Positions 10,216 to 61,343 of a stretch of 64,000 bases of DNA are shown here, piece after piece. A model generated the notes under the pieces. It was not told the DNA's origin. It saw only the letters and a list, made by a program, of their open reading frames with translations, and did not search any database. The first letter of the stretch is position 1, and each line of letters opens with the position of its first letter. The DNA lies in the NCBI GenBank assembly GCA_963965975.1, contig OZ014412.1, forward strand, positions 13,778,849-13,842,848, in the 5' to 3' direction. This stretch comes from Xestospongia bergquistia (Eukaryota > Porifera > Demospongiae > Haplosclerida > Petrosiidae). The position numbers were made by a program, and so were the translations under genes.

Positions 10216-10228
10216 TTCATAAGTATTT

Positions 10229-31826: not shown

Positions 31827-32170
31827 TCAATGTCGGACAAAGTCTTTCTTACGGAGATATTTCGTACGTACGTCTGATTTAGCTAAAAACTCTTTCATTT
31901 TCATTGCAGTAGAATTGTGAGCTACTATAGGGCTTTCTACTGCAGCAATAATATTCTTCCAAGTCACATCAGTAGGCATAGTGTCTACCCAACTGTTGAC
32001 TACTGTCATAAGCTTAATGCCATCATCTTGTGGGTTATTACTACAACTTTCTAAGACACAACGTTCTACTTCAAGGGCTTGACCAATTTTTTTCCATTCA
32101 TATTTTATATCACATAGGAAGTGAAGAACATCATTAATGCTAGGTTCCTTCTTAAGGACTCCTGATATAT
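31827..32170 (-). CDS. Terminal exon: Death domain
   Basis: The acceptor CTTACTATAG precedes the exon. The frame runs 113 residues to a TGA at 31827-31829. It has the six-helix Death-domain pattern: EPSINDVLHFLCDIKYEWKK, IGQALEV, NPQDDG, then VTWKNIIAAVESP and MKMKEFLAK. Key tryptophans (EWKK and TWKN) are present. Death domains form homotypic complexes in apoptosis and NF-kB-type signalling. It follows the GTPase-COR exon after a 133-bp intron, phase 1, with Asp split across the junction. A short basic tail (KYLRKKDFVRH) ends the protein. A dead paralogous copy lies at 8800-9142. Confidence 0.88.
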
Positions 32171-32303
32171 CTATAGTAAGAGAAAAAAAGATTAAGTGTA
32201 TGGTTCTGAAAATCAGCGATCTGACATGAATGGATTAATTCATTCACAGTTATATGCACAAGGAATGAATAAAGTCTAGACTATCTTATTTAAATGCTCT
32301 TAC

Positions 32304-34373
32304 CAAGTTTACTTGTTACTACAGTAGCGGCATTTTTATCAATCCAGGGAAGTTGTCGTATCTCATTGATATCCTTTGTTGACATGTTGTCTTTACAACA
32401 AGTAAGTACCATTTTGTCTTCATTTGGACGACACAGATGATCTGTTGAAAGTGGACATACGGAGCAAAGAAAACGTTCTTGAGGCATTGAGAGAAATGGC
32501 TTATATTGAAATTTCTTGACTACATCTTCAATCGCTTCAAAAATGACAGTCTTGATAGTGGAGCACTTTGTAGAAGGGCCAGAATAGTATACCTCCATCC
32601 AGCAGATAGCATCGACAAGTAAAACTGCTCCTCCAGTACCAATACATGCTAAACGAATAGCATTACGATACTGCATCTCAGACTCTGATGGACAATGTAG
32701 GTTAAAATGTGGGGGATCGTGTCGTTTAAGGAGACCCACAACCAAAGCAGGAAAAAGACCTTGAGGAATTGGCTTTGTATCCCACGTGAAAACAAAACAA
32801 TCAATGTTTTTAATAAATGGATCTCTAATATTCTCTAATAGAGAAGTTGTGGGCAAAACACTCGGTAGAAAGAATTTCCCTTTTTCAGGCAATGGTGCAA
32901 TAACTAAAATATTCTCCATTAACTTCAAGAAATCATCTGCAGTAAAATCAGGTGAAAAACCATCAGGAAGACGATCAAGTAGCTCTCGTGTAAAAATACC
33001 TTCAGCCTTGAGTTGAAGATGTGCATTTCCAGGTAAAACTATATTCATTTCCTCTAATTGGTTAACAGCATCAGCAAAAGAGATGCTGATTATTTCTGAG
33101 AGCTTGTTAAAAAGGGGTTGTGGGTGTAGAAAAACCACATCAGACAATACGGCTGGAAAGTACAAGAATATGGTTAAATCGTGAAAGTACAGTAACGAAG
33201 ATTCGATATCTTTGCGATCCATCTCAAGCGTCAAGCCTATTCTACAGCATTCTCTTTTACTGATGACCATTGACTTGTTTTTTTTCTGAAGATCCTCTAA
33301 TTCAAGCTTAAACAAGAACCATCGTGCTGGAATTTCTGCCTCAATGTAAGATTGACTAACAATTGTACGAATCCTCTCTGCAATTTTCATTTCTGACTCA
33401 CCTCTGGCTGTTGTGTTGACAGGAAATATTATCTCCTTTTTGGCCTGACGGTAATTCATACACACACCTCTGAATTGACTTAGGGTAGACCACAAACGAA
33501 CGTTTTTTTCCTCCAAAGATTCACTCACGCATTCTGCAATTTTATCAAAAAACGTACCAAGAACGAGCAATGAAGGCTCAGGATGTGAAAACTTGATGTG
33601 AATACCGCGCAAATCAGGCTGATCTATGGATGCTAGCGAACGAAAAGAAGACTCGAGTAGTTGTAAATTGGTGATTTCTCGCTCTACAGGGGCTCCAATT
33701 TGTTGACCCTTAAAGCTAAAAAAAAATTGGGGCTTATCGTCAAGCTTCTCATTTAATTTTTGTGTAAGGATATTAACTGGACTGTAGCGTAATATTGCCG
33801 GAGCAATGTCTAAAAAGGCTGCCTGTCCACCTGAATCTACACAGTAAATCCAATGAGAGTTGAATAGCTCAGGAGACTCTTTTACAGTAGGCATAATCTC
33901 AGCAATCTCATTTGCTGTTTGTGAAACAGGTGGAGGTGTTGGCTTTGAAGGAGAAACAGAGGTAACTTCATTGAGGTCTGGTGGTGTTTCCTCTTGTGAA
34001 CCATCATCTTCAGATGAACTATTGCTATCCTCATGTTGTGTCGTGGAATCAACAGTAGAAGATGGGACTCCAATTTTAATGGCTTTGGCAATCATATGTT
34101 TTATATATGGAGTATTAACTTCTTCCCAAAATTGACTGGTAAAAGAAGAATCAGTTGACTCACTTCCTGCAATGAGACTTGCAGTCTCTACTCTTCTTAC
34201 TTCAGGAGTAGTAGCTACAGAGGTGCTCTGATGATGTGTAGGTGGGGGGAGATTTAATAACAATTTTAGGATAGATGACTTTCCTGTCCCAGGTGCTCCA
34301 GACAGTGATAACTTTGAGTACTTACATCGAATTCGACCTTCTTTCAGTGCCTTATGAAGTAAACCAGTATAAT
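32304..34373 (-). CDS. Large exon: Roc-like GTPase plus COR domain
   Basis: An uninterrupted 2070-bp exon (689 codons) with an acceptor TGTTCTATAG and a donor at CTTG/GTAAGA. The start is a splice site, not a methionine. A Walker A/G1 motif, GAPGTGKS, lies at about residues 26-33. An acidic, Ser/Pro-rich insert follows. A G3-like DSGGQAAFLD is at ~180, then a G4-like position VLGTFFDK at ~275. A COR-like block from ~345 reads IPARWFLFKLELEDL, then LLYFHDLTIFLYFP, VVFLHPQPLF and LSEII. The final ~250 residues are unassigned and include GTGGAVLLVDAI and FQYKPFLSMPQERFLCSVC. NTPase activity is plausible from G1 and G3. No frame breaks are seen. Confidence 0.85.
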
Positions 34374-34502
34374 CTATAGAACAAAAGAGAGAAAATAGTT
34401 ACGCAAGAAACTAGTACTGTGAGAATGTATAACATTCAATGTTAGCCTTTAAATTAGTACAGTAATACATTATGAATAATATGATAAGATTATATGCAGT
34501 GG

Positions 34503-36672
34503 CTAACCTACCGGTACCGGGAAAGAACTTTTCTTCTTATATTACCGGTAACGGTGAATAAAGGGTTAAATTTAACCATTGCCTAGCAAAATTAGTGCAC
34601 ATGACTGAAAATGGCTCTATCTTTCAATATGTTGGCGATCTATTCTGAAGTTTTGCAGAACTGGAGACCAAACAGAACGATTATAAATTGGTAAACTGTG
34701 TGGAATTTTGGAAACAAGACGCCAGAACTATTTTGAATGCAAAGAAAATGTTGGAAAAAGAACTTAAGCCTGAACTAAGATATTATGAGATAACGTACTG
34801 CTGTATATATACACCGAGGGCAGTCCTTCCAGGCTATAGGAAAGGGGATTAAATCAACTTAGTATGGGTAATTGTCACATCTGCCGATGATAATGATTTT
34901 TATACACAGTACATTTAAACATGACTGTCCAGCACACATTACCCTTCGTGTTAATGTAAGTAGTACTGCCTTAGAAGTGAAGAGTGTTTCAACTGAGCAT
35001 AACCACGAAATACCACAGGTAAGCGTTGGAATGGTGTCAGTTTTAACATGACATGTGACAATGTTATATAGGCACTATTTAAGCACATTCCTCACCATAG
35101 ATGCCTTGATAAAGAAGAAAGAAAACCAGCAAAACTGTTACATATTAGAATCAACAAGATGCTCCAACAACAATTATGTCAAGAGACAGGAAAGATTGTG
35201 CTTCTACAGGATCTGTCAAATATATCGTTTGATTCAAAGAAAGAGCAGTCAAGGAATGTTTTGGATACAACCATCAAAGTGCTAATAGAGATGTATGGTA
35301 TGTATAATTACTATATTAATCAAGGCCTTGACAGCTGGTAAATGTACAATATAGTATGTCCTATTCATTAACTTGTCAGTTGAACTGTCTTTTCATATAT
35401 AGTTCAATCAAGTTCAAAGGGCAAACATAACCTTAGTCAACATAAAAAGTACCGTAAACCTCCTTTGCTGACATCAGAGCTGGTTTCTGTTGCTAATTGA
35501 GCATCACATGTCCATTTTGATCGTCTCTTACAAGTACTAAAAGACCTGATAGTTCATTGGAAAAGCAATCAAGAGGTCACTCTTGTTGATGTTGATGTAT
35601 ACATTATTCCTCTCATGGCCAAGTTTGCCATCAGTTTAAGGTTTAGTTAAAGGTTTAAAAGTGTAGGGGATAGGGTCTAGTTATAGTATAGCCAATTTAT
35701 ATACACTGTAATACATATCTCATAATATATTAATCCTTTCTTTAGTTAAAAGGTTCTGATGATGACACTTCTGGTAGTGAAGATGAATGTGATCAAGGTA
35801 ATACCACAACTGTAATGAACTCATCTGGGGGAGCACGTATAGATATACATGAACAATGTAAGTTAGTTTACATCAATTACAGAAAAGTTTCAAACATATT
35901 TTACAATGTAGGTACAAGTACATGTACTAGCAGTCATTTAAGGCCACCACATCCTTCTACAAAGACTACTGAATGTGTTGGTCTGATGAGGCATCTCTCT
36001 GATTCTACTAACACAGTTGTTGAAAGCCCTTCTAAGATTCTCAAACAACAGAATTTTATGGGTGAGTTATAACACTATGACCATACTTTATTATAGTATT
36101 TCTAAAGGATTAAAACTTCCGCCAGTTTTAAGGTAGACCTAATTGCCATGGGTGCATGACCATTGGACTATTAGCTAAACGATTGGAAACTTCCAAGAAA
36201 CCTAAAAGTTTCAGTTGTAAACACTGCTCAGAAAAAGAAAGAGGTACATCTAATACTGAATGGTTCTGTTATGACTGCCTACACTTACATTTATAGTTAT
36301 AATTATTGTCTTGGTATGTTGGTTCATTGGAAATTGAAAGTGCTCTAAAAACTGGAGGCTTTATAGAAGAACATGAAATAGAGTGCCATCCTGAGAAAGT
36401 ATCAAATGCATTACTGAATGAGAATGTAGATGTTCATCTGGTTCGCCAATATTTAACTGATGATGCTTGGAAACTTATTTGAAGATGTTGTTGAAAGAAA
36501 GAAAGACTGTGATGTTTGGCTATGAAAGATATGCCATCATGATCTTAATGGCAGTAAATAAAAGCAGTCAATTATTTGTGATTCGTGCCTTGAATGGTAT
36601 AGTTTACTAGGCAATAGTCAATTAACCCTTTATTCACTGTTACCGGTAGAATAGTCGGTACAGGAAGGTTAG
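34503..36672 (+). mobile_element. MULE/ZSWIM-PHD-type DNA transposon, dead
   Basis: Terminal inverted repeats of ~85 bp begin CTAACCTACCGGTACC at 34503. The right repeat ends at 36672, sharing 'taccggtaacggtgaataaa' with one change. Flanks show only a weak 9-bp match, so the target duplication is uncertain. The element carries broken plus-strand transposase exons (34620-36560). It lies in the intron between the last ankyrin exon and the GTPase exon. Confidence 0.8.
34620..36595 (+). pseudogene. MULE/ZSWIM-like transposase with C-terminal PHD finger, broken
   Basis: Pieces in order: a ...TLRVNVSSTALEVKSVSTEH block followed by NHEIPQ and a GTAAGC donor at 35019 (a FAR1/FLYWCH-like DNA-binding region). 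Then ALFKHIPHHRCLDKEERKPA and the helical KIVLLQDLSNI (35070-35300). Near the end comes a PHD-like WL-x-KICHHDL ... IICDSCLEWY (36510-36600), with a stop in place of the first expected Cys. Several stops and frameshifts separate the pieces. The catalytic DDE core is not found, so it is internally deleted or too decayed. Such transposases would mobilise the surrounding element. Confidence 0.65.
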
Positions 36673-36898
36673 ACACAGCGAGCATATACTCTTAGAGTAT
36701 TAGAAATTGGTACTGATTGTTGCTTGTAATCCTTGATTATGAGTTTGTACATATTATATAGTCATGGCACTGTTATTACTAGCAGTATTCATCATGTTAC
36801 TAGGTTACATTATATCATTGTGTTGATATTTATTGTATGTACATTCTAATGTAAAGAATATAATAATGAAGTACATTACAATAGAACTATAGACTGAC

Positions 36899-37082
36899 CA
36901 TATAGTGACTTGTCAATTAACTGTAGTATTTTGTCTTTATTGACATCATCAGATTTTACCATGTCAGCAGGTGTTTGGCCCTCATTATTCTTTATGTTAG
37001 CATCTGCACCACTTAACAATAATACTTCAACACATTCTACTTTTCCTTCACGGCAGGCATCATGTAAGGGGCTAAGTCCATT
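36899..37082 (-). CDS. Ankyrin-repeat exon (last repeat plus linker)
   Basis: 184 bp, 61 codons plus one base. It begins NGLSPLHDACREGKVECVEV, a canonical ankyrin helix pair, and continues LLLSGADANIKNNEGQTPAD into a capping half-repeat ('KDKILQLIDKSLY'). The acceptor is ATCACATAG and the donor is TATG/GTCAGT. Phase 0 in and phase 1 out fit the neighbours: the upstream exon ends phase 0 and the GTPase exon starts by completing Asp. Ankyrin repeats bind proteins. Confidence 0.87.
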
Positions 37083-37548
37083 CTATGTGATAAAAGAAAT
37101 TATAGTAAGAGGAACATGATAGAAACTTTACATTATAGAGCTATAAGCTAATCATTATTATAATAATGTAATAAAGATAATGTGGGGAATATACTAAATT
37201 GATATAATGCTAATATGTATGTTCTTCCAGTCATATTATTACAATTATCCAACATATGATGATCTATACTATGTGTTATGATTGTAATAACTACTGTATA
37301 TGAATTCAACATTGATCATATCTGTTATATTTGTTATTAATATTATCTATAATAAACATATTTTATGATAGAGATTGATTAGTGGGAAGGGTATTCAAAA
37401 ATATATTGACAACAAGTAATACATACTACTATTACAATGTTACAAGGAGTATGACATAAAATAAATTAAAATATCATATTAAATATCTGGTTGTAACAAT
37501 ACTGAGTTAACTAATTTGTAATTGATATTTACACTGACTATACCAGCA

Positions 37549-38770
37549 GGAGAAATTAGTTATCATCACAACAGATGTCAGTATAGTTATATAAAATGTT
37601 AGGATTAATACAAGAAGTAGTTTGTAAAGATTCACTTATGCGTCACGAATAATCAGAAAGAATCTATTATACAAGTCTAATTATTCTCTCAATGTAAATG
37701 TCAGAGCATATTTCTACAAGTAATTAACAGTATCCTGGTATATTCACTATGTTAATACTTAGAATGTCAAATCATTTAACTTATATCATGGAATAAACAT
37801 AGTGATGACATTGATTATAATTATAGTTAGTGTTACTGTTATAGTAAATACAGACATGTTGTTTATATTGTGTGATATGTTAGCTTTAGAAAGGTGGAGA
37901 TAATTTCATTCTAGCTTATATCAGGTATTACTAGCACCTCATATATTGTAGTAGTAGGTAGTAGTTGTATGTACATAAACAAATAGACAGAGCTCAAGTG
38001 ATATGCTGTCATTGTTCTTCTTGTTACTTAATTTACCATATCTGTTTCTTAATGATTGCTCTTACATCTTTTAGAACACAAAGCCATTTACTGTCTTTGG
38101 AATTATAAGAAATTTAAGTCAAAAACTACAAAATTCATAATGCTAACATGTAAACTTATTCAAGTCACTAACAATAAGAAATTCTAGTATACAAATCTGT
38201 CAACATAAAATAACAGAGCATAATTAGTATTCCAAGTAATAAACAATATCCTGGTATATTAGCTTTGTTGCTACTGAGAGTGTATAACAATTTATCTTAT
38301 ATAATAGACTAAAAGTAATTAGACACTGTCTAGCTAGTGCTAGGACTATAGTAAAAGTAGACATGTTGTATATATTGTGATGATATGTAGGCTTTTCAAA
38401 TTAGAGATAATTTCATTCTAACTAATTGTAGTCACTAGGTCAGTGGAGTTAACCCTCACATACACAATTATAATCATATTAGCTCTTACTACACACTACA
38501 ATACAATATATCTGGTTGTGCAATGCTGTGTTAATGATTTTGCAAATGATATATTCTATAACTTATTGTAGTTAATTGCTATTAATACATTACCATAATG
38601 AATGATATGAACTGGAGTTTGAAGAAAACTTCTTATGTAAACTTATTCAAGTCAATAACAATAAGAAATTCTATTACCAAATTTTTCAAAGTAAAATAAC
38701 AGCATAATTAGTATTCCAAGTAATAAACCATATCCTAGTATATTAATTTTGTTTAATGCACCCACGCATG
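37549..38770. repeat. Intronic ~500-bp direct repeats
   Basis: 37549-37915, 38125-38420 and 38640-38755 share blocks such as 'aagtaattaacagtatcctg', the 'tagtaaatacagacatgttg' block and 'gataatttcattcta'. A fourth, close copy is at 47110-47490, so the unit was once repeated across this intron before the retrotransposons arrived. Confidence 0.75.
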
Positions 38771-39122
38771 TACTTCCAAAATTGTCATGGTGACGTAACT
38801 TTCGATGCTACAGCATATCCTTAAGATTTTTGCACTAAATGATAGCACGTGATGAGCTCTGTAAATATAATATTTAAGTATTGCCTGATGATGTTTTGTA
38901 TTTGCCAACCTAATTTTGTGCATATTGTAAAAGTTTACACGATTATGACGTCATAAATTAATTTCCTTCACTTCTTCCTGGAGGTCACATGATCAACTTC
39001 TTTGTGGTTTAAGCTATCTCTTTATCGATGTCATCAAAGTCGAAGATACAAAGGCAACGCGAGGAATCATTAGTACTAGCAAGTAAAATTAAAATGAATG
39101 TTGTTCTAGTCAGGAGGAGTCA

Positions 39123-39419
39123 ATGATGGAGGATCAGTTTAGTGGAACGACCGACGAGGTTAGAACTGAACCTGAAGGACTTGCTGAATTGTTGGTGCTG
39201 TCTGGTGATGCCTTAGACATGGAGGATGAAGACGTCGACCCATCATTTGATTTAGGCTCAAGCTTGAAGTCTGATAAGAGATCATATGATAACTTTTGTG
39301 ACAAATGGGTTACTCATCTTAACCATGAAGATAGAGTTTCTCTTGGCCTCCTTCTCTGCTTTCAACTTAGACCTGTACTTAGAAAGGGTGTAACAGAATC
39401 AGCAGAGTTTTCTTCATAA
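39123..39419 (+). CDS. 98-aa acidic reading frame, possible N-terminal exon of a DNA transposon
   Basis: Starts with two Met codons, then an acidic stretch (DMEDEDVDPSFDLGSS) and a predicted helical part with WVTHLNHEDRVSLGLLLCFQ. It terminates just before the truncated gypsy copy. Similar acidic leaders followed by 'SLGL-F-CFQL' helices occur, as far as I recall, in repetitive proteins of sponges, so a transposon origin is plausible but unproven. The family is not recognised with confidence. Confidence 0.35.
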   Translation: MMEDQFSGTTDEVRTEPEGLAELLVLSGDALDMEDEDVDPSFDLGSSLKSDKRSYDNFCDKWVTHLNHEDRVSLGLLLCFQLRPVLRKGVTESAEFSS

Positions 39420-39532
39420 AAACCAGCATTAGATTCAATATCCCTCCAAAGAATCCAGAAACATTTTGAAAGGTATACCATTACATACTTACTTATCTTG
39501 AAGATATACCAAAAGGCTGAGACTTAGAGATG

Positions 39533-41301
39533 TTAGGAAGAAAGTTCAAAATATATTCAGACCACCAACCACTCAAATATTTATTCAGTGAAACCCGTCA
39601 GATAACAGTGATGGCTGCATCAAGGATTCAACGTTGGTCACTACTCCTCAGTTCTTATGAATATGAGATTGAATATTGACCAGGATCCAAAGTAGCAAAT
39701 GCTGATGCTCTCAGTAGACTCCCTTTACCAGAGACCACACCCAAGTCAATTAAAAATGGATCGGTAGAACTACTCATTCATCAACTCTCAGAAGTAATTG
39801 TCACTGCTAATCAAATAAAGAATTGGACAGAAAAGGATCCAATCTTATCTCGAGTTCATTGTTTTGTATTACACAGATGGCCAAACATTGTTGACAATGA
39901 AGATCTCAAGCCATACTTTAACCGTCGAGATAAACTCAGCATCGTCAAAGGGTGTGTCTTGTGGGGATCACAAGTAATCATACCTACACCTGCTCAGTCA
40001 CTGATGTTGAATCAACTACATGACACTCATCCTGGAGTCAGTCAAATGAAGAGTCTTAGTCGTGCATATGTCTGGTGACCAGATATAGACAGTGATATTG
40101 TGAAGAGAGTGAGAGGATGTAATATGTGTCAAATGAATAGACCTTCTCCTAGTAAAGCTCATCTCCACCCATGGGAGTATCCCTCTAGACCTTGGGCGCG
40201 GATACACATTGACCATACTGGTCCCTTCATGGGAAAAATGTTTTTAGTGGTCATAGACGCTCATTCCAAATGGATTGATGTTGAAATACTGAACTCTACT
40301 TCCGTGAGCAACATTATTAAACTTCGTTCATTATTTGCTACACACGGCATACCAGAACAGTTGGTGTCAGATAACGGATCAGATTTTCAAAGCGAGGAAT
40401 TCAAGCAATTCACAACTCAGAATGGTATTAAACACATATTCACATAACCTTACCATCCCTCCTCCAATGGATTTGCTGAAAGTGCAGTTCAAAGTTTCAA
40501 GAGTACAGTTGTTAAAATGGATGGTCCAATTAATGTACGTTTATCTAGATTTTTACTTCAGTATAGGGTAACACCCCAGACTACTACTGGACTTTCCCCG
40601 TCTCAACTCCTAATGGGGAGGAAGATAAGAACATGATTAGATGCACTACATCGTGATATGTGAGAAGATGTCAAGAAGAAACAGGAGAAACTCATCTCTG
40701 GCAAGGAACCTCGAAAGTTTAAACTGGATGATCTGTTGTTTGCAAAACATTTTCATGAATCTATGTGGATACTGGTGAAGGTAACTAAAATAACTGGACC
40801 TTTATCGTATGAAGTTACAACTGAAAGTGGCATTACTTTATGATGTCATGTTGACGATCTTCGAAGATTTTCAGAAGAGTCACAAAGTACATTATCAACT
40901 CAAGAGGATTGGTCAATAATAGATACCACACCTCAAGGAAGACCTCAACCTAATCAGGTAGAAGTTTCAGAAGCTCAAGAAGATCGTGCGGAACCAACAG
41001 AGCCTACTAAATCAACACCTGAAAATCCAACACCAGTAGTGCGTTCACCAGTTAAAAGATCAAGTCGTAAACGAAAATCGCCTGAAACATTTGCTCCACT
41101 CATTTGAACTTAAAAACTTAAAAAGAGGGAAAATGTGGTAACTTAAATAAACCTATGATTTACTGTTTATATAAATGTTCTGGAACTACACTATATATTG
41201 TCATGTAAATTCAGTTTTGTTCAGTCTACAGTTGTTGAGTTATTATTCTTTTAAATATATATGTTGTATTGGTAAGCTCGGTCACTAGTAGAATTACATG
41301 A
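39533..41301 (+). mobile_element. 5'-truncated Ty3/gypsy copy (RNase H, integrase, 3' LTR)
   Basis: Begins abruptly within RNase H (homologous to 45240 in the complete copy) and keeps the integrase and 3' LTR (41134-41301). Frame-breaking stops include TGA in the RNase H C-terminal part, TGA for Trp after 'YV' near 40077, and TAA in 'IFTSPYH'. Readable pieces: HDTHPGVSQMKSL (zinc-binding region), IDHTGPFMGK, LVSDNGSDF and the Glu of NGFAE, i.e. the integrase D, D, E positions. The right flank TAGTTACC equals that of the complete copy, so the two share one ancestral insertion. Confidence 0.85.
41134..41301 (+). repeat. 3' LTR of truncated gypsy copy
   Basis: Starts TGTGGTAACTTAAATAAACC after a purine-rich tract and matches 42800-42960 and 46773-46940. 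The last bases read ATGA instead of AACA. Confidence 0.85.
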
Positions 41302-41440
41302 TAGTTACCTTGTATGATTGGTATTATAATATCAAAAAAGGCTCTATTTTGCATTTTCCTTTTGAAATTATTTCCCAAAATGTAACATCCCAAAAATCTG
41401 AAAGAAACGATTTCAAGAAAACACTTTTCGGACCACGCCT
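41302..41440 (-). pseudogene. Duplicated N-terminal piece of PGBD-like transposase
   Basis: Minus-strand frame ending 'DIIIPIIQGN', nearly identical to 46941-47080. It is the part of the PGBD-like gene that lay beside the gypsy insertion, showing that gypsy plus flank was duplicated. Confidence 0.7.
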
Positions 41441-42960: not shown

Positions 42961-42985
42961 TATTTGGCAACGAGAGGTAAAAGAG

Positions 42986-44320: not shown

Positions 44321-46750
44321 ATTGAGAACTAGAAAGTCTACTTAAAGCTGGAGTTATCTCACCAGTTCAATTTTCTGATTGGGCTACCCCAATTGTACCA
44401 GTTGTCAAGTCAGATGGGAGTATACGTATTTGTGGAGATTATAAGGTGACAGTCAATGCAGTCTCCAAACTAGAAGAGTATCATCTTCCCCGTGTGGAAG
44501 ATCTATTCGCAGCTCTTTCTGGAGGAAAGGTATTCTCTAAACTAGACCTTTCTCATGCTTATCAACAAATTGTACTAGAAGAGGTTTCCAAAAAGTTTAC
44601 TATCATTAACACTCAGAAGGGTTTATTTCAGTTCGAACGACTTCCTTTAGGTATCTCTTCCGCCCCTGCCATTTTTCAACGAACAATTGAAAGTTTGTTG
44701 CAAGGGTTACCAGGGGTGGTTGCATATTTTAATAACGTTTTAGTAACCGGAAAAAGCCAACAGGAGCACCTTGAGAACCTGACAAGAGTACTGAATTGTT
44801 TAGAAGAGGCTGGAGTAACATTGAAGAGACACAAATGTACATTCGCTGCACCGTCAGTTGAATATCTAGGTCACGTTATCGATCAAGAGGGTTTGCATCC
44901 ATCATAGGAATGTGACAGAATGAAAGTCATTTTTACGTTTGCTCAATTATTACTCTAAATTCTTGCCTCACTTATCTACTCTTTTGTCTCCACTGTATCA
45001 TTTACTTAGGAAAGATGGAAACTGGTCCTGGAAGAATTTGCAAGAAGATGCATTTAATAAAGCCAAGCAGTTGCTTCAATCATCCACACTCCTCATGCAT
45101 TCAATGGATGATGGATCAGAGAAACCAATTGCATTCATTTCTAGAACTCTCTCACCAGCTGAGAAGAAGAACTCGCAATTAGAAAAAGAAGGTCTAGCAA
45201 TTATTTTCGCTGTGAAGAAACTACACCAATACTTATCAGGAAGATAGTTCAAAATATATTCAGATTACCAACCACTCAAATATTTATTCAGTGAAACCCG
45301 TCCGATACCAGTGATGGCTGCATCAAGGATTCAACGTTGGTCACTACTCCTCAGTTCTTATGAATATGAGATTGAATATCGACCAGGATCCAAACTAGAA
45401 CTACTCGTTCATCAACTCTCAGAAGTAATTGTCACAGCTAATTAAATAAAGAATTGGACAGAAAAGGATCCAATCTTATCTCGATTTTTTTTGTTTTGTA
45501 TTATACAGATGGCCAAACATTGTTGACAATGAAGATCTCAAGCCATACCTTAACTGTCGAGATGAACTCAGCATCGTCAAAAGGTGTGTCTTGTGGGGAT
45601 CACGAGTAATCATACCTCCACCTGGTCAGTCACTGGTGTTGAATCAACTACATGACACTCATCTTGGAGTCAGTCAAATGAAGAGCCTTAGTCGTTCATA
45701 TGTCTGGTGGCCAGATATAGACTTGTGATATTGTGAAGAGAGTGAGAGGATGTAATATGTGTCAAATGAATAGACCTTCTCCTAGTAAAGTTTCTCTCCA
45801 CCCATGGGAGTATCCCTCTAGACCTTGGGCGCGGATACACATTGACCATGCTGGTCCCTTCATGGGCAAATTGTTTTTTAGTGGTCAGAGACGCTCATTC
45901 CAAATGGATTGATGTTGAAATAGTGAACTCTACTTCTGCCGTGAGCACCATTATTAAACTTCGTTAATTATTTGCTACACACGGCATACCAGAACAGTTG
46001 GTGTCAGATAACGGATCAGGTTTTCGAAGCGAGGACTTCAAGCAATTCACAACTCAGAATGGTATTAAACACATATTCACATCACCTTACCATCCCTCCT
46101 CCAATGGACTTGCTGAAAGGGCAGTTCAAACTTTCAAGAGTACAGTTGTTAAAATGGATGGTCCAATTGATGTACGTTTATCTAGATTTTTACTTCAGTA
46201 TAGGGTAACACCCCAGACTACTAGTGGACTTTCCCCGTCTCAACTCCTAATGGGGAGGGAAGATAAGAACAGGTTTAGATGCACTACATCCTGATATGTC
46301 AGAAGATGTCGAGAAGAAACAGGAGAAACTCATCTCTGGCAAGGAACCTCGAAAGTTTAAACTGGATGATCTGTTGTTTGCAAAACATTTTCATGGATCT
46401 ATGTGGATACTGGTGAAGGTAACTAAAATAACTGGACCTTTATCGTATAAAGTTACAACTGAAAGTGGCGTGACTTTATTACGTCATGTTGACCATCTTT
46501 GAAGATTTTCAGAAGAGTCACAAAGTACATTATCAACTCAAGAGGATTGGTCAATAATAGATACCACACCTCAAGGAAGACCTCAACCTAATCAGGTAGA
46601 AGTTTCAGAAGCTCAAGAAGATCGTATGGAACCAACAGAGCCTACTAAATCAACACCTGAAAATCCAACACCAGTAGTGCGTTCACCAGTTACAAGATCA
46701 AGTCGAAAACAAAAACCGCCTGAAACATTTGCTCCACTCATTCGAACTTA
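44321..46750 (+). pseudogene. Gypsy pol: RT, RNase H, integrase, broken
   Basis: RT 44340-44910 with SDWATPIVPVVKSDGSIRI, KLDLSHAYQQI and 'LPLGISSAPAIF'. The catalytic Y-x-D-D box reads YFNN (codons AAT AAC at 44731-44736). RNase H at 44939-45420 shows KPIAFISRTLS and SDYQPLKYLF, with a TAG after 'LSGR'. Integrase at 45600-46500 shows HDTHLGVSQMKSLSRSYVWW, DHAGPF, VSDNGSGF and SNGLAE, i.e. D, D, E kept, with frameshifts near 45725 and 45890. The chromodomain-like C-terminal part runs from 46300 to 46500. At least six lesions make the polyprotein non-functional. Confidence 0.88.
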
Positions 46751-46758
46751 AAAAACTT

Positions 46759-46772
46759 AAAAAGGGGGAAAA
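46759..46772 (+). other. Polypurine tract of gypsy element
   Basis: AAAAAGGGGGAAAA directly before the 3' LTR; primes plus-strand synthesis in LTR retrotransposons. Confidence 0.8.
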
Positions 46773-46940
46773 TGTGGTAACTTAAATAAACCTATGATGT
46801 AATGTTTATATAAATGTTCTGGAACTGCACTATATATTGTCATGTAAATTCAGTTTTGTTCAGTCTACAGTTGTTGAGTTATTGTTCTTTTAAATATATA
46901 TGTTGTATTGGTAAGCTCGGTCACTAGTAGAATTACAACA
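46773..46940 (+). repeat. 3' LTR of gypsy element
   Basis: 168 bp, from TGTGGTAACTTAAATAAACC to ACAACA, followed by TAGTT. Confidence 0.92.
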
Positions 46941-47100
46941 TAGTTACCTTGTATGATTGGTATTATAATATTAAAAAAGGCTCTATTTTGTATTTTCCTT
47001 TTGAAATTATTTCCCAAAATGTAACATCCCAAAAATCTGGAAGAAAAGATTTCAAGAAAACACTTTTCGGAAAAATGGAATGTTACAAACATTATGCTGA
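46941..47100 (-). pseudogene. N-terminal side of the gypsy-split PGBD-like transposase
   Basis: The minus-strand frame reads FLGCYILGNNFKRKIQNRAF then 'NIIIPIIQGN' and would join NYNPDSQIAVDES at 42799 if the gypsy were absent. The ORF annotated as 81 codons here starts in unrelated DNA and runs into the LTR. Confidence 0.7.
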
Positions 47101-47109
47101 CCACTAACA

Positions 47110-49703: not shown

Positions 49704-51658
49704 CCCTTTACGTGCATGCGCAAAATGATGTCATTAATTGCCAAAGCCACACGTTTTTCAAGTATTAAACGGTTTGGGAAGAAGACACTTATAATAATGT
49801 AAATCTCTATTTCAAAGTATTTGGAGATTTTTTTTATCTGTAGAAGTGTTGACTAGACCTCTTATTGTGTTTTAGATGTCTTACTTGTTGTTTACAAAGG
49901 TTAGTTACGTACACACTCATCACATCAATCTGTCTATATTACAAGTGACTTTTTCCTTTTTTTCATGAGATTCAAAGACTGTTAAGAGCTTTTAGCATTT
50001 TAATATACTTTTACAAATACCTAATATTTATAGAGCAATATCATATATACATATTTATAGATTATTATAATTTATAATTAATTAGTTCATGGTATCGTTT
50101 GAAACAAGTATCTACATGTAATGGTGGGTTATTTGTGCATGTCCACAGAAATATATTGTGTCATGTCTTTGTCCTTTTTTATGGTCATTACATACAAGAC
50201 GTCATCTTCGTTTTGTCCCATGTTCAATGTAGTGTCGTCCTTGAAAACGTTCGTCTGGTCTTGTGGGGCGCATCAGCTGTTTTCTGAAATCTCCTACAAC
50301 TAACCCATCACAAAGACTTACTACTATCTGTCGTCTGTAGTCAACGTACGTGAGAGGTTTGTTAACTGACATTTTGTACATGATGTATGAGTTTACAATG
50401 GCAACTTCAAACAACCAGAACATGAGCTTTCTCCACCACTTGACAATATGTCTTCCAAAGGAATAGTAGACAGCATGTTGGTCTGTTTTGTCCACTCCAC
50501 CCATGCTCTGATTATACTTGTGGATAACAAGTGGTTTTGTTTTCATTTCTCAACGTCTACAATTGTCAAAGTTGCTGTATGTACAGTTGATAGCATTAGG
50601 ACTGTTTTACCTTTGTCTCTCCAACCTAAGACCAACTTCTTTCTGTTCCTCCAAGCCCTAGTTTCCCCTCTTCTTACTTTCACCGTGTTCTTTCTGACTG
50701 CTTTAGGGAGTTGCTTTCTGTTGCTAATGATGGTACCAGTGTATCCTTTATCGTTCTTTTCCAACTCATCTGCCAAAGGAACACTAGAATAGAACCTATC
50801 AGCATAAATGTGGTGACCTTTGCCAGGGTATTTTTCAGCAACAGTAACAACAACCTTGGCTAACAGAGGGAGATCATCATTACAGCTGGAGAGACGGGCT
50901 CTCATCTCCTGCCCAGTATAAGGAAGGATGTTACAAATATAACCAGTCTCACTATCAGCAAGTACAAATGCTTTTAGTCCCCATTTTGTTTGTCTTAGAG
51001 GACAGTATTGTATGAAACTAACTCTGCCCTTGAAGCCAATCATAGTTTCATCAATTGAGAGCTCACAGTGTGGATAGTATATTCTTTGAAATCTAGCAAG
51101 AAGGTGATCTAAGAGAGGATGAACTTTATTAATTCGGTTTGTAAGTGGTGCTTTCTCAGGTATATGAAGCATCCAGAATATTTCCTCAAATCTATTTTGA
51201 GAAAGTACATCGTGACAAAATGGTATGTAGCTTTTTTTATGAAGATCGCCATCATTGGAAGATGTCTCTATCATTTGTTGTAAATAATATTTCTGTCTTT
51301 TTACATATATATTTACCTTCATCAAAAATATCACTAAAGTCTGATACATCTGATTCGTCGCTAAATACCCTTGCAATAACGTCATCAGTGGTAAGAGCCA
51401 TATCTAAACAATGAACACTATCGTCGTATGTATTTGCAGCTGCAAAGCTTCTGTATATCGACTCTTATTATACGAAAGGAACATGATTTTACAAGAAAAC
51501 AATCGAAGAATAGCTATTCTAAATGTGCTTCAGATCTGTGTAGACAGTTACAAGCAAAAGACAAGACAAAAAAATAAGATGGTAAGTCCGCGACGCATAT
51601 ATGCGTTCTTGGCGCTGTCATTGATTGCCGCATAAATGCGTTTTTGGCGTGTAAAGGG
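49704..51658 (-). mobile_element. piggyBac element, TTAA-flanked, nested in MULE
   Basis: TTAA lies at 49700-49703 and 51659-51662. The ends are CCCTTTACGTGCATGCG on the left and CCCTTTACACGCCAAAAACG read inward on the right. The 1955-bp element has subterminal palindromes (GCATATATGC and related near 51596). Removing it restores continuity of the surrounding MULE transposase. Confidence 0.9.
50095..51401 (-). pseudogene. PGBD/piggyBac transposase, internally deleted and frameshifted
   Basis: First exon 51401-51317 starts MALTTDDVIARVFSDESDVS, an acidic leader. After a GTAAAT donor the frame resumes directly at VLSQNRFEEIFWMLHIPEKA, so about 200 residues of the usual N-terminal domain are missing. 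The catalytic core shows ELSIDETMIGFKGRVSF, TKWGLKAFVLADSETGY, HIYADRFYSSV and SMGGVDKTDQHAVYYSF, with all expected Asp present. A one-base shift at ~50543 splits the core. The Cys-rich tail (LVCNDHKK ... FCGH) is out of frame near 50100-50200. Confidence 0.88.
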
Positions 51659-53376: not shown

Positions 53377-53762
53377 AAAGTATCAAAGAAGACCTCAAAA
53401 GGTCAAGCCACACATTCTATATTACAAGACTTCCCTCCCTCAGATGAAACTCCACCAGCATCTCCACGGCAACCATAAATAATGTGTATGATCTCTTCTC
53501 AGTCAGAGGCAAGACCAACCCAACTGCTTTGACAATTCATGTAAACATGGCAGTCCTTCCCATGGAACTAGACACAGGGGCTTCTCTATTCTTAATTAGT
53601 GAGGATACTTATAAATCCATTATACTCTGTTCTAGTTGAGAAAAGCTCTTCATTAAAAAAAAGGTGTTATATGCATGGATGTAAGGTGAGGAATTTCCTT
53701 ACCTTTTATATACAATTAGCGCTGAAGCACATTTTAATTATATTCATTATTTGTTCACGTGA

Positions 53763-54720
53763 ATGTCATACGAACACACCATGTTTTCTCTCATGATGCC
53801 AGCGGGAAAGAGATTGAGATCACAAACAAAGGAGGTTGTTGTGAATCTCTATGATTATTTTGAGGAACTTGACAGGCGTAAACGGACTGAAGGATCTCTG
53901 AAACAAACCTCTGATGCTACAAAACTTTCACGTACCAGCACGGAAGGAGAAACTTAGTACAGGGAGCTGCCTTTTCAACTCCAACAAAGAGGTGCAGCAT
54001 CTCCAGACGCTTGTTAGTTGATGATTTTGATCATGAAGCCATCAGACGAAAAATATACCACCTCTATTGGGGCAATGAGCACGTGTCACTGTCCAAGTTG
54101 CTTGTTGTATTGAAAGAGGATAACCTCTTTCACAGTCAGCAGTCAACCCTCCACATCTTGCTAAGAGGAATGGGTTTCAAGTGAGTCACCATAACTTTTC
54201 TTATGATGCCCATTAATATTATACTTTATAGACATAAGAGAGTATATGACAGACACCACTACTATGAACAACCACACATTATGGAACAGAGGCATGCTTA
54301 CCTTTGTCGAATGATGACAAATCGCAAGATTAGCTTCAGGCAAAGGGAGTTGAATTCCTAACAAATGCCTTGAAAGCTGAATTGTATAGCATCATATAAA
54401 GATTGAAACCTACCCCTCGCTATGTTGTTGATGACATGGCTGTTGGTGCAGGTAAGAACTCAGTCAAGATAACCTTTGTATTTATTGATATGTACATCAT
54501 ATAGGGCATGAGGTGGTCCAACTCCCTGTTGCTCACTGCACTCTCAATCCTGTTGATTTGGCATGGACATAGGTTTAAGGTAACATCAAGGCCAATACTC
54601 GTGCATTTAATCTCTGTGAGGTTGAGCAGCTGGCATGGGAAGGCTTCAACGTTGTGACACCTGACCATTGGAAGAGCCTCATTCAACATGTTCAGATCCA
54701 CTTTGAAGACCACTATTGGT
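53763..54720 (+). pseudogene. Decayed DDE transposase (Tc1/IS630-like) nested in gypsy 3
   Basis: Pieces read VVVNLYDYFEELDRRKRTEG, LLVDDFDHEAIRRKIYHLYW, HVSLSKLLVVLKEDNLFH and HSQQSTLHILLRGMGFK, the helix-turn-helix pattern of Tc1/IS630-type N-termini. Further right come RQRELNS and, at the end, VVTPDHWKSLIQHVQIHFED, typical of the C-terminus of such proteins. The catalytic centre is not readable. Flanking gypsy protease sequence on both sides shows that it is an insertion. Confidence 0.6.
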
Positions 54721-57572
54721 ATATATAGAGTATATGTAGTAGTGTTACTGATAAGTTGAAACCTTCAGATGTTTCCTTTCACACCTATACAGGAGAAACA
54801 TTGGCTGTTTTAGGATACGTAGATGTCGAAGTTAAATATGAGTCACAGGCCTTTATCCTTCCATTAATTGTTGTGAAAAGGCAAGTTTATTTGGATGGAA
54901 CTGGCTTGAGAAAATTAAACTAAATTGGTTTCCTATTCACACTGTCACTATATCATCTCATTTAGATAATTTATTACAAAAACGTCAAAGTCTTTTTCAT
55001 AATCGGCTAGGAACTCTACAAGGGTTTCGTGCTTGATTAACTGTAGATCCGACAGCACTAACTTCTTTTTTCAAACCTTGACCGGTACCATATTTACTCA
55101 ACGAAAAAGTTGAGAAAGTATTAGAACGGTCACAAAATCTGGGTATTATTATACCAGTATCATTTTCAGATTGGGCTGCTCCAATTATTCCTGTTATGAA
55201 AAGTGACAATAACATTCGTATTTATGGTGACTACAAGGTGACTATTAATCAAGCCTCTCAGCCAGACTCCTATCCATTACCTCATGTTGATGACTTCTTT
55301 GCAGCTCTGTCAGGTGGAACTATTTTGTCAAAATTCGATCTTAGTCATGCATACTAGCAGATATTACTTGATGATGAATCAAAAAAATTACGACAATCAA
55401 CACTCACAAGGGATTGTTTTAGTATCATAGATTACCTTTTGGCATTTCTACTGTTTCCATGTACCACCATTTCAATGTACAATAGAGACTCTCCTAACAA
55501 AAGTATGTGTCATATTGATGATATTTTGGTTGCAGGTGTTGATGAACAGGATTTGGGCATGTCTTGAACATAATATAGGCCAAGTTTTAGAACAATTAGA
55601 AGTTGCTGGACTTTCTCTGAAGAAGTCAAAATGTGTTTTTATGACAAAATCGATGGAATACCTTAGTCATGTCATTGATGCTAGTGGCCTTGCCCATCAA
55701 GCAGTATGGTAAAAGCCATTAAAGAGGCTCCAGAGCCTACTAATATTACTGAATTAAAGTCTTTTTTTAGGGCTATTTAATTATTATAACAAGTTTCTTT
55801 TTAATCTGTCAACAATTTTAGCTCTATTGCACACTTTACTCTGTAAAGATACTAAGTGGAAGTGGCCTAGCACCTGTTCTTGCACACAAAATGTATGATA
55901 ATAGTGAGAAACCTATTGTTTTTATCTCTCGAACCTTGTCCTCTGCAGAAAGAAATATTCCCAGCTGGAGAAGGATGCATTAGTAAATGTTTTTGCTGTA
56001 AAACGGTTTCATCAATACTTGTATGGTAATGCATTCAAATTCTATTCTGACCATCAGCCTCTGAAACATCTCCTCAAAGAGTCTCATCAGATTCCAGTTA
56101 TGGCATCCTCCAGGATACAATGATGGGCTTTGACATTGTCAGCATATCAGTACACCATTTAACATAGACCTGGTACCAAAATGGCAAATGTTGATGCCTT
56201 AAGTCGACTTCCACTACCTGAATCACCTTTATCAGTACTAATCCCTGGAGACATAAATTTGGTCCTAGAGCATCTCTCAGACAATGTTGTCACTGCCTCA
56301 TAGATTAAATTGTGGACCGAGAAAGACCATGTATTAGCGAGAGTTCGTTGCCTGGTCCAAACTGGGTGGACTATAAGTGACCCTGGTCCTGATATTCTTC
56401 CTTACTTTCAATGTCACACATAATTATGTGTTATAGATGGTTGTGTACTTTGGGGATCAAGGGTGACTATTCCTGAAGAAGGGAGAAGGAACATCATCGA
56501 ACAACTGCATGAGACACACCCAGGAGTGAGTAAGATGAAAAGTTTAACTCGTTCATTTGTATGGTGGCCTGGTTTAGACTCTGACATTGAAACTGAAGTT
56601 CAACAGTGCAAGATTTGTCAACTGCATTGTTCAATGCCAAATGAAGCTTCTTTTGCACCCGTGGGAATATTCCAGTCAACCATGGGTAAGAGAACATATT
56701 CATCATATTGGTCCTTTTTAGGAAAATTGTATCTCTTACTAATTGATGCCCATTCTAAGTGGATGGAGGTCCATGTTGTTCCTTCAACATTGACTGAAGC
56801 TATCATTGACAAAAATCAGAATTATATTTTATACTCACTAATTCCTGACCAATTAGTATCGGATAATGGATCTGGGTTCACTAGTCAGGAGTTTTCACTC
56901 TTCATGAAAAAGATTGTACACATTGACTTCTCCTTACCATTCTAGCTCAAATGGTTTAGCTGAGTGTGCTGTGCAGACTTTTAAGAATCAAATTCGGAAA
57001 TTGGAAGGTGACGTTTAAAAGAGAATTTCAAAGATTTTTATTTAGATATCGACTACTCCTCAAAGTATTACTGTCTCTCACTTGCTGAACTACTAATGGG
57101 TCAGAGACTTCGTTCTCATCTGGACCTACTCCATCCAGATACATCTTGTAATGTGATTAAGAAACAAGACAAGTTGACAGCTGTTACTAAACATTGTTGA
57201 AATTTTCATTGGTTGATTGTTTGTATGCAAAAAATTTCAAAGGCCCTGACAAGTGGAGTCCTGTCACTGTAACACATATTACTGGTCCTGTCTCATATCA
57301 GGTACAAATTTCTTCTGGCACCATTCAACACCATCATGTTGATCACCTTCGTTATCGCTATCCACTGAACAGTGACGATCAAGAGTCAAATGACTTTGAT
57401 GATTGGCCTTTTTCAAGTACTACATCAACTACTGATACATCCTCAAACCTAGAACAAGGTCATGGTCAATCGATATTGCATCATCCACTACCTCCTCTCT
57501 TCAACATTCTAATAGAACCCGCAAAGCATTTGATCGTTATGGACCTAACTTTTCAAACTAGAATGGGAGGAA

Positions 57573-57782
57573 TGTTGTAACTTATTTCTTATGATTGTTA
57601 TTTCTTGTGATTATTATGTGATATGATGATGAAATTATAGTTGGTAACTTCCTGTTTGGTATGTATATATCTCAGTTTTGCTGTGTAAAAATCATTATTT
57701 TAAATTGTCATTCGTTCTTGTTCAGTGACTATGTTCAGTATCTAAAGGGATCATTCCTATTCGTTTACTACCGGTCGTAACA
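57573..57782 (+). repeat. Putative 3' LTR of gypsy 3
   Basis: Starts TGTTGTAACTTATTTC after a purine-rich stretch (AGAATGGGAGGAA) and ends GTCGTAACA. No second LTR is found in the window for comparison. Confidence 0.6.
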
Positions 57783-57849
57783 TGTTGTAAGTATCCTCAA
57801 TCCTTCCATTCTTTGTAATCTTATCCTTTTAGGTGATTTCATATTCCTA

Positions 57850-59275
57850 TTGACACTGCTTCTGGTCCTTACAGTATCTCCTCTATCATGTTCCACAACA
57901 CAGCTCATAGTATTTCACTTCCTCTTTCCCTTATTTTCAATTCCTCCCTCTCACCAGACATTTTGCTTTCAGATTGGAATAACTCTAATATCATATCTAT
58001 TACTAAATCAAAAAAATCACCATCCTCTTCAGACTATTGTCCAATATTTCTATGTTCCCTCCCAAGTAAAATTCTGGAACATCACATGTTTAATTATCTG
58101 TGAGACTTGTTCTACTCATAAAATCCTTTCTAATTGTCAGTTTGGTTTCCAACATGCATTCTTAACTGAAACAGCTCTATTATCCATTGTCTATTCTTGG
58201 TTTTCTTCATTAAATCTCAAAAAAGAAATGCATGCAGTCTTCTCTGATCTCACAAAAGCATTTGACTCATTCTCTCACAAGCCTCTACTCAACTTATCTT
58301 CACTCAACCTTCACCCTCTTCTTTTGTCTTGGCTCAATAGTAATCTACAAGGCTGTACTTAAGAAGTAATTGTAAATCGTTCTCTTTCTTCTAAATCTCA
58401 AATCACCTCTTGTGTACCCCAAAGTTTAATTCTTGGTCTTTTCCTATTCATCATCTATATAAATGATATTGATAAACTACCCCTCCTCTATTCAGCAACC
58501 CTCACCCATTACGCTGATGAAATTCTTCTATTTTAAGAAATTTCTTCTCCATATTCAATATTGCTGTTCAATCAAAAATCAATCTCATTACACTGTGAAT
58601 TAGCTCTCATCATCTCAGTGTCAACTAAAAAACCGAATACATGATCATCACACGTAGGTCTCTCTCTTGTTCAACCTCCCTTACTCCTCTTTTCTTAAAT
58701 GATTCTCAACTTGAACATGTCAATTCATTTAAATATTTTGGTGTTATTATCACCTCTAATTTATCATGGTCTTCTCACATCCAGTCTGTCCACTATAAAG
58801 CTTGTCAAACCATTGTTATCATCTACTGTAACTTCTATCAGCATGCTTTTCCTTAAAGTCTTTTCACTTATATTGCTCTCTTATCATTCCCTATTTAACC
58901 TACCACTCCTCTCTTTTTGGGACCCACCACTTTCTTTTATCAATTCTGTAATTCCTGAAAAAACACACAACAGTTTGCCCTAAAAATGTGCTCCCATAAG
59001 TGGGACAATGATTACTTGTCTTTTCTCCCAAATTTAAACCTTCCACTCCTCTCCACTTGTTGCTCTCTTTCTAAATTATGCCTTTTCTGTAAAATTACTA
59101 ACAATCTCCTTTATTTTCCTTCTAATATTTTATCCACAAATCTCCTCCATATTATACTTCTCATCACTTGGACTCTCTCACCTTTAACATCCCTTTTTTT
59201 CACTCATCTGCTTCACAAAATTAACTTGTCACTTCTATGCTCTCTCTGTAAAATTCACTTCCTTATCATGTGAAA
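57850..59275 (+). pseudogene. Non-LTR retrotransposon (LINE) reverse transcriptase, decayed
   Basis: Frames in order: ISLPLSLIFNSSLSPDILLS, SKKSPSSSDYCPIFLCSLPS, KILEHHMF (57888-58100), then AVFSDLTKAFDSFSHKPLL (58245-58290), 'VPQSLILGLFLFIIYINDID' and YADEILLF, where the usual YADD reads YADE. The downstream region has 'VNSFKYFGVIITSNLSWSSH' and a C-terminal 'NLNLPLLSTCCSLSKLCLFC' stretch, as in CR1/L2/Jockey-like elements. Frameshifts occur every 100-250 bp. No endonuclease domain is seen, so it is 5' truncated. Confidence 0.75.
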
Positions 59276-59849
59276 TGTAGCTCATCTTTAATCACTTTTA
59301 ATGCAAAGTAAATATGCTTATTTACTAATCATCACTTGCTATCACTTATCACATAAAAACATATCAGATACCATCAATAACTTATTTTTATCACTGTCTT
59401 ACTAATCATGCTATATATATATCCAGTATTTTAATAATAATTTGTTTATTATTATTCTATTCTTTTGTCCCCTTTAAACTAGTAATAGCTATTAGGCTTT
59501 TATTTTGTCAATACAAAAATGGTTGTCATTGCAATGTCTGTGCAGCAGATGCAACGAGGCCTCCATACATTGTCAATGAGCGAAACATTTGTCTCATTTC
59601 TTAGAATAAACATAAAAACAAAGGTTGTTCAAATTTGATCTTGAATGAATGTGAAAACTTTGTTTAATAACAACAAAGTTTTTATAAAGTTTTATTATAA
59701 TATTTTTTCGATATACTGAAAATGTTACAAATTCGCAAAATTACTTATATTCATATTGGGTTACATTTGGTGATACTATAATTCACACAATAGTGTTGAC
59801 AACTCTACTGTCATCATTTGTATATGAAAACCTGTTAAGAAGTGATATG

Positions 59850-60057
59850 AAGTGAGAGTGGTCTAGACTATGTGACAAATCTGTAAATGCTGCTAGACAA
59901 GCATTAGTGTGATCAAAGTTTAGTATATTATAATCCAATACTACCCATTGTTCTAACAATAGAGGCCTCTCAATGTGGTATCGGGGGTGTTGTCACATGT
60001 GTTTAAAATTGTCGGTGAAAAGCCAATTGCTTATGCATCTAGAACTTTAGGTATGAT
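59850..60057 (+). pseudogene. Gypsy RNase H scrap
   Basis: A short decayed stretch: 'EASQCGIGGVV' followed in another frame by VGEKPIAYASRTLG. This is the start of a gypsy-type RNase H with the first Asp lost. The neighbouring 59280-59850 and 60060-61240 contain no recognised feature. Confidence 0.55.
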
Positions 60058-61244
60058 TAACTCTTTATACATGAAATTAATTATTGTGGACATGTCATTA
60101 ATACTTAATTAAAAATTGCCTAAAGATACTTAATACAAAGTTGCATCTCTGTTGTGTTAAAGTGTATTTTGTTGCTATGCTAAGCTTTATACTTGTCCTA
60201 TAAGATCTTTCAGGCATTTGTAATAGAGTAGATACTTCAAGAATCATTTCTAGTTGCTTACATTGATGAGTGATTAAGTTAGGAATGTTCATTACAATAT
60301 AGCCTTTGTGTTTGTGTGTTATTGCATAACAACTTCTGACACTATCTAAGTTTACAAATACTCTCATAGAAGTTAAACAACCATCTATAGGTTGCTAGAT
60401 GTACAAAGATGAGAAAAATAACTGTATGTTTTGGACGTTCATAGAAAAGATAAGAATTCATCAACTTTTAACACAAGCTAGGGTTCAGGACTAGAAAAAA
60501 TAACTATTGGCTGTGTATTTTATATTACTCTACCTTATAGTTGTTTAATAGAAAGTTTGAGTCAGCTAGCTATAAGATTTCTGCTAAAAGAGAGAGCAAA
60601 CTTGTTGGATGTGACAGTACGTCTACCGTATTAACATGTACTTTATTACATGTTCTTTATGTATATTGTATATAAAGGGTTAATAAATAGAGCACTGCAT
60701 GTATTGATAGAGTGATCTCGTAACCTCATTTGTTCTATGTGTTAACTAGTAATCTCTGTGTAGTCTATATTTAGAATGGACAACAGTTATCACAATTAGA
60801 AGTATAACTTTATTCAAGAAAAATGTTGACATAATACTATCCAAAACACTGTATGTGTCATTTTGTACATACAAAAGTTATGTTATTGATTCATATATAA
60901 ATAAAAATATTTATTGTAAACATTTGTTAACTAACATCTGTCAAGATGACATGCTACAACATAATGTTGTGTCCATGACAACATTATATTATATACATAG
61001 CAGAAATAGGATCATGATAATCAGCAATTAAAATTAAATGCAATTAACTAATGTTTTTTTTTCATTTCTACAAATATTAATGATAATTGTAATTATAGAA
61101 ACATAGTTGTAATTATAATTGATTACTGTTGAAGTAAATGTAATGATAATGTTGAAATGATCAAATGTTATAATCAAAATGATTACATTGAGGCTTTAAT
61201 GGACACATCACTAGTATATAGTATAGTAAATATTTGATACTAAC

Positions 61245-61343
61245 CTCATTAACAGCATTTGGATTAGCTCCTTTGTTAATTAAAACCGTAGCAACTTCAG
61301 TATTTCCATTTATTGCTGCCCAATGCAAAGGAGTGTCCTTGAA
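61245..61343 (-). CDS. Ankyrin-repeat exon, 33 aa
   Basis: 99 bp, phase 0 both sides: FKDTPLHWAAINGNTEVATV continuing LINKGANPNAVNE. The acceptor is ATCTTTTAG and the donor GAG/GTTAGT. This is the most upstream exon visible; the incoming phase-0 acceptor means that more coding exons (further repeats or another domain) lie to the right of the window. Confidence 0.87.

Follow-up and report, generated by a model that had tools for sequence, protein, structure and literature searches.

A 64,000-nucleotide stretch of contig OZ014412.1 from the sponge Xestospongia bergquistia (GenBank assembly GCA_963965975.1, positions 13,778,849 to 13,842,848; hereafter the window) carries on its minus strand five exons that join three ankyrin repeats, a GTPase-COR core, and a C-terminal Death-family exon. 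Judging by its reading frame and splice sites, this chain appears to be a genuine animal gene with several exons, and we lean toward reading it as a host gene for a ROCO-type switch of ankyrin-ROCO-Death architecture, whose family would have grown by tandem duplication and swapped halves by recombination. In this assembly the window copy is a mosaic: its ankyrin half is like that of one paralog (L045), and its GTPase-Death half is like that of another (L039). The genome contains at least 64 GTPase-COR loci; an earlier sequence-only reading of the window had described the gene as hidden among dead transposons, but rather than a lone survivor it is one member of a large family.

The five exons lie at 61343-61245, 47851-47753, and 37082-36899 (ankyrin exons 1 to 3, or ank1 to ank3), 34373-32304 (the GTPase-COR exon, 690 codons), and 32170-31827 (the Death exon, which carries the stop codon). 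Joined, they comprise 2796 bases, or 931 stop-free codons followed by a single terminal stop. AG precedes all five exons, the four donors read GTTAGT, GTAAGT, GTCAGT, and GTAAGA, and the entry phases (0, 0, 0, 1, 1) fit at each junction; the exons, splice sites, and phases described in the sequence-only reading thus hold throughout. By chance, and with the local base composition, an open frame of 702 codons from a given start would have a probability of ~1e-23. The same reading had warned that calls of long open reading frames would miss the P-loop; this is true only of callers that require an ATG first, whereas the P-loop lies inside the 702-codon stop-to-stop frame.

Each of the ankyrin exons, previously described as being of the 33-residue type, scores above the Pfam PF00023 (Ank) cut-off of 21.1 bits: ank1 (33 codons, entry phase 0) at 40.7 bits, ank2 (33 codons, phase 0) at 30.4 bits, and ank3, which enters in phase 0, leaves in phase 1, and has a helical tail, at 38.4 bits. 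The assignment of ank1 also draws on its splice sites and phase, and that of ank3 on its flanks in paralogs. When all six frames of the window were searched with a family profile built from 28 ankyrin exon sequences, the window's own three included, only these three exons were found (E values of 5e-20, 1e-18, and 2e-17; the next E value was 1.3).

Within the GTPase-COR exon, the P-loop GAPGTGKS (G1) occupies positions 34276-34299, and its residues G, A, P, T, G, K, S, and S are invariant in 15/15 aligned paralogs, apart from one Gly-to-Ala change in L058. The G3-like motif DSGGQ (33823-33837) is invariant in all 15 as well; both motifs had been picked out in the sequence-only reading. The G, T, and D of LGTFFDK (33541-33561), which we take to be G4, are likewise conserved in every sequence. 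The alignment also contains an invariant H..ST as a possible G2, and we assume that H..ST, DSGGQAAFLDI (as G3), and GT..D (as G4) correspond to ROCO motifs. Ahead of G3 lies a long acidic, Ser- and Pro-rich insert (33877-34167, limits approximate), recognized from the alignment and its composition and marked by its ratio of nonsynonymous to synonymous substitution rates (dN/dS); as proposed earlier, it separates G1 from G3, and it is kept in 15/15 aligned paralogs with variable length. Directly after the G domain, at residues 349-506 of the exon (32857-33330), a profile search identified a COR-A domain (PF16095) that covers 142 of 143 positions and scores 35.9 bits, just above the cut-off of 35.3 bits, in agreement with the COR similarity expected from the sequence-only reading. 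COR-A also exceeds the cut-off in other family exons, on contigs C11 and C12. A Cys/His cluster (32395-32466), a possible metal site, lies toward the 3' part of the exon; in it, C637, H646, C648, C659, and C660 are invariant in 15/15 aligned sequences, and C640 is replaced by His in L053 and L058.

The Death exon was assigned through its relatives. Pfam Death matched 8 of the 19 aligned relatives of this exon (E≤1, best 6.1e-7), and the profile of the Death family, searched against the PDB, identified the death domain of FADD (E value 0.0084).

Comparison of the large exon with 14 paralogs gave dN/dS values of 0.16-0.27 in 14/14 comparisons, the values for the more distant paralogs being rough, with dS above 1; against the nearest copy, dN/dS was 0.18. 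Based on these ratios, the large exon is under purifying selection. Among its regions, the acidic insert had the highest dN/dS in 13/14 comparisons (0.25-0.85).

Searching the genome (146.46 Mb in 21 contigs) with the GTPase-COR exon gave at least 65 matches with 46-100% identity (64 of 640 candidates scored). Of these 65 matches, 62 are stop-free, and 59 are both stop-free and full-length (at least 670 query residues). The Death exon gave at least 150 matches (150 of 970 candidates scored, all matching), and COR-A gave at least 146 (150 scored), about 105 of them above the cut-off; the COR-A matches listed are incomplete, as neither the window exon nor its relatives on C2 appear among them. 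Many of the COR-A matches are closely clustered and sit in open frames ~700 codons long, for example at C10:1.40-1.70 Mb, C11:6.37-6.47 Mb, and C12:5.39-5.54 Mb. A Death match occurs on the same strand within 5 kb downstream of at least 34/64 large exons, ank3 occurs within 10 kb upstream of at least 24/64, and both occur for at least 19/64; these counts are lower bounds from part of the matches, and some of the Death matches contain a stop. In the paralogs examined, the order ank3, GTPase exon, Death is kept, and L050 and L049 also have ank1 and ank2 ahead; in L050 (C1), ank1, ank2, ank3, the large exon, and a Death match follow each other in about 8 kb.

Other loci show altered arrangements. 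L053 (C11:6336000-6345000) has one GTPase-COR exon followed by four Death matches. In L049 (C9:4574500-4582500), the large exon retains its P-loop start and its 3' end with most of the middle gone, and the ankyrin exons and Death are still matched. L040 (C2:13284000-13293500) consists of two tandem 3' ends, each with part of the COR-side exon and Death, and the P-loop part was not found within that stretch.

The mosaic structure of the window copy is seen in a switch of its closest relative between positions 34495 and 36200 (defined by identity bins and BLAST limits), from L039 on the 3' side to L045 on the 5' side. Against L045 (C2:14.39-14.40 Mb), identity rounds to 100% in each of twelve 200-base bins across 36.2-38.6 kb, whereas within the large exon it is 94-96% in the first 600 bases and 78-87% over 32.4-33.8 kb; overall, the L045 GTPase exon is 82% identical to that of the window. 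The L045 region (ankyrin half at C2:14.40-14.42 Mb) also has ank2 and ank1 segments 99% identical to those of the window, this 99-100% identity of the ankyrin half holding for the segments compared. The distance from ank3 to ank2 is 10,697 bases in both, and that from ank2 to ank1 is 13,483 bases in the window and 14,307 bases in the L045 region. Against L039 (C2:14.85 Mb), identity is 97.5% from 30.5 kb (the start of the query) to 34,494, a stretch that includes both the large exon and the Death exon. Beyond this point the match breaks off, to pick up again over ank3 at 94.9%. For the ankyrin side, the window is about as far from L039 as from other copies, whereas L045 is identical to it. A lower identity of the L039 ank3 protein was considered as a further sign of mosaicism and dropped, as the DNA is 95% identical and the L039 ank3 is interrupted.

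Relative to L042, dS changes stepwise within the large exon, from 0.06-0.11 up to the G3-G5 part to 0.50-0.55 thereafter, and in a test of the pairwise homoplasy index (PHI) type on eight copies, 0/2000 permutations were as low as the observed value, both for all 419 informative sites and for 215 third positions. L043, L044, and L048 are 80-99% identical to the window over 34.4-38.4 kb (introns), whereas they are only 70-87% identical over 32.4-33.8 kb (coding). Because introns are here more alike than the downstream coding sequence, the comparison points to exchange between copies rather than simple descent. Among family members, recombination seems to have swapped sensor and output halves.

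Several observations weigh against an ankyrin-ROCO-Death gene. The ROCO-type identity claimed in the sequence-only reading holds for COR-A and the conserved motifs but not for the Roc profile: Pfam Roc matched 0/15 family members, and the G-domain reading therefore rests on those motifs. Pfam searches found COR-A at E≤1 in only 4/15 aligned paralogs, and neither the GTPase exon nor the GTPase family profile identified a ROCO relative in the PDB. When the GTPase family was aligned with the Roc-bearing locus L059 using hhalign, only the P-loop region aligned, at 3.7% probability, and L059 was dropped as a bridge from the family to Roc. Structure prediction, which had been suggested for the large exon, was uninformative; the single-sequence models of the GTPase exon and the Death exon were unusable, with predicted local distance difference test (pLDDT) scores of 33 and 42, respectively. 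The proposed Death domain stands at the level of the family profile and the 8/19 relatives, but the window's last exon alone has no match in Pfam or the PDB. Within 5 kb of 4/7 closest paralogs there is no listed Death match; the output part may vary between copies, and weaker Death exons could be missed with 150 of 970 candidates scored. Lastly, the joined exons contain no start codon and the first exon seen opens at an acceptor, so the gene extends upstream; the "intact gene" of the sequence-only reading therefore retains five intact exons, whereas its 5' end lies outside the chain. Perhaps more ankyrin exons precede ank1; three ank1-type matches (14111704, 14124397, and 14145605) lie in a row upstream of the C2:14.07-Mb member of the array.

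Some of these results would also suit a core formed by another P-loop nucleoside triphosphatase (a STAND- or AAA-like ATPase) within an NLR-like logic of ankyrin sensor, ATPase, and Death output, which we regard as unlikely. The weak matches of the P-loop part are led by ABC_tran (12/15) and AAA_22 (12/15) with no Roc, and COR-A is barely above the cut-off in the window exon; however, COR-A spans nearly its entire profile directly behind the G domain, and listed COR-A matches fall within at least 29/64 family exons (30 of the 146 COR-A matches entered). Moreover, DSGGQ and GT..D are invariant, the GTPase model MMR_HSR1 matched 3/15 members (best 0.029), and neither NACHT nor NB-ARC, by which an NLR or STAND protein would be recognized, is among the 17 Pfam families listed for the 15 members at E≤1.

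It is also rather improbable that the window holds a recently dead copy, in which the frame is still open and the gene is silent or has lost its 5' end. The start exon was not seen and the array is rich in relics (for example, a broken ank3 at C2:14.856 Mb and a relic at 8.4-9.4 kb of the window), but the five exons are intact with good splice sites, and the low dN/dS against the nearest copy argues for constraint, albeit part of this signal may predate a loss. We give even less credence to the idea that the distant ankyrin exons come from other genes or dead copies, such that the gene consists of ank3, GTPase-COR, and Death or less. The introns of 10.7 and 13.4 kb are in keeping with it, as is the count on the C2 minus strand of 18 full-length ank2 copies (92-100% identity, the window's copy counted) versus 9 exact P-loops, which means that some ankyrin exons lack a listed GTPase exon; nevertheless, phases agree at all junctions, compact L050 holds all five exon types in order, and a 100% copy of ank3 has 99% copies of ank2 and ank1 at comparable spacing. 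An assembly error, made where array copies are nearly identical, is an equally doubtful source of the mosaic. The long 100% identity at 36.2-38.6 kb is the kind of place where assemblers fail, but the 3' half falls short of full identity with its partner (97.5%), the zone between the halves is closest to neither partner in every bin, and the mosaic signal among eight copies is independent of this one junction.

If the gene encodes a ROCO-type switch, it is probably an innate-immune or cell-death sensor. By analogy with DAPK1 and other ROCO proteins, the ankyrin repeats, one per exon, would bind a ligand or partner; binding would change the nucleotide or dimer state of the GTPase-COR core; and the C-terminal Death domain, once freed, would recruit death-fold adaptors and thereby elicit a defense or cell-death response. 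Transcription, GTP switching, Death signaling, and the role in defense are in this scheme all features that we infer. Tandem duplication would have enlarged the family, and recombination would have fused the ankyrin half of one copy with the GTPase-COR-Death half of a second. With its tandem arrays, its relics, and the exchange between its copies, the family would fit a role in defense or recognition. More tentatively, the array may provide an early animal with combinatorial receptors, single-repeat ankyrin exons and GTPase-COR-Death cassettes recombining as separate units, a possibility to which we would not commit. In such a system, exchange would alter both what is sensed and the output that is fired (no listed Death, one, or several), and the repertoire, serving immunity or self-recognition, may differ widely from one individual to the next.

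Vertebrates have few ROCO proteins, LRRK2, DAPK1, and MFHAS1 among them. DAPK1 (group 3 ROCO) resembles the present gene in that ankyrin repeats precede its Roc-COR core and a Death domain forms its C-terminal part; in the window, the ankyrin, COR-A, and Death-family parts follow the DAPK order, with Roc unmatched by Pfam. However, DAPK1 is a single human gene, compared with at least 64 GTPase-COR loci here; its core is Roc-COR, whereas the core here is marginally matched by COR-A and not by Roc; and, in a review, the Death-bearing ROCO group is represented by DAPK1 with an N-terminal kinase ahead of Roc-COR (PMC6337361), whereas no kinase is seen in the present exons, which lack the gene's 5' end. 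In brown algae, according to one report, exons with single leucine-rich repeats (LRRs) are shuffled in ROCO genes with a proposed immune role, and the sets of 9-47 genes per species are called the largest so far (PMC11378527). Like the sponge family, the algal genes carry a single repeat in each exon, have exchanged sequence among copies, and form large sets (PMC11378527); they differ in having LRR rather than ankyrin repeats and no Death domain, and in being mostly dispersed rather than in tandem arrays.

Among animals, at least 17 ROCO genes are described for Trichoplax, an early animal in which Roc-COR is joined to other domains and, in some of the genes, to Death; the partners named in that account are CARD, death, TPR, LRR, and AAA, and not ankyrin arrays or swapped halves (PMC4104024). 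The sponge Amphimedon has a vast Death/TRADD-N expansion of 357 proteins, with Death-like domains joined to ankyrin and other modules (PMC8195603), whereas in the present family Death is C-terminal, behind a ROCO-like core. In sea anemones and Aplysia, Roc-COR is linked with kinase, Death, or TIR parts (PMC5094078, PMC9334734), and some sponges are enriched in Death and NACHT domains (PMC4772301). In the open-access literature as far as its text was available, with bioRxiv outside the scope, we found no description of an ankyrin-ROCO-Death array with exchanged halves. The bare ankyrin-ROCO-Death architecture may well be catalogued somewhere already, since up to forty ROCO domain combinations are given for animals in the algal report (PMC11378527); the added interest lies in family size and mosaic history. 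At least 64 ankyrin-ROCO-Death-type relatives and at least 146 COR-A matches would exceed the algal sets, and the mosaic pattern, which parallels algal exon shuffling, would mean that ROCO cores have given rise to diversifying receptor families more than once.

Elsewhere in the genome, L059 (C4:1728380-1730520) represents a separate family. Its 652-residue open piece scores 32.5 bits against Pfam Roc (cut-off 27) and is nearer to the Roc of LRRK2 (PDB 6xaf, E value 0.012), and a match of the window's Death family lies just downstream (C4:1728053). The P-loop and G3 are 50 residues apart in L059 versus 146 residues in the window exon, where the acidic Ser/Pro-rich insert makes up the excess.

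The introns between the ankyrin exons (within 37083-61244; 10,670 and 13,393 bases) contain retroelement and piggyBac-type remains, including pieces of reverse transcriptase, integrase, gag-protease, and piggyBac-type transposase. Within them, two stretches that are 95% identical (39765-41432 and 45396-47071) enclose pieces of retroelement integrase and reverse transcriptase, and positions 50543-51403 hold a transposase of the piggyBac type (DDE_Tnp_1_7). Outside the gene, a relic at 8385-9402 comprises a GTPase exon 3' end and a Death exon, is 72.7% identical to 31417-32420, and has stops in its Death part. A 6.9-kb tandem duplication (9843-16644 and 16675-23529, 96.4% identity) has degraded GTPase-COR exon pieces in both units, at 10.2-10.5 and 16.9-17.3 kb. 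Near the beginning of the window, at 208-974, a 130-base tandem repeat is present in about six copies with 71% matches.

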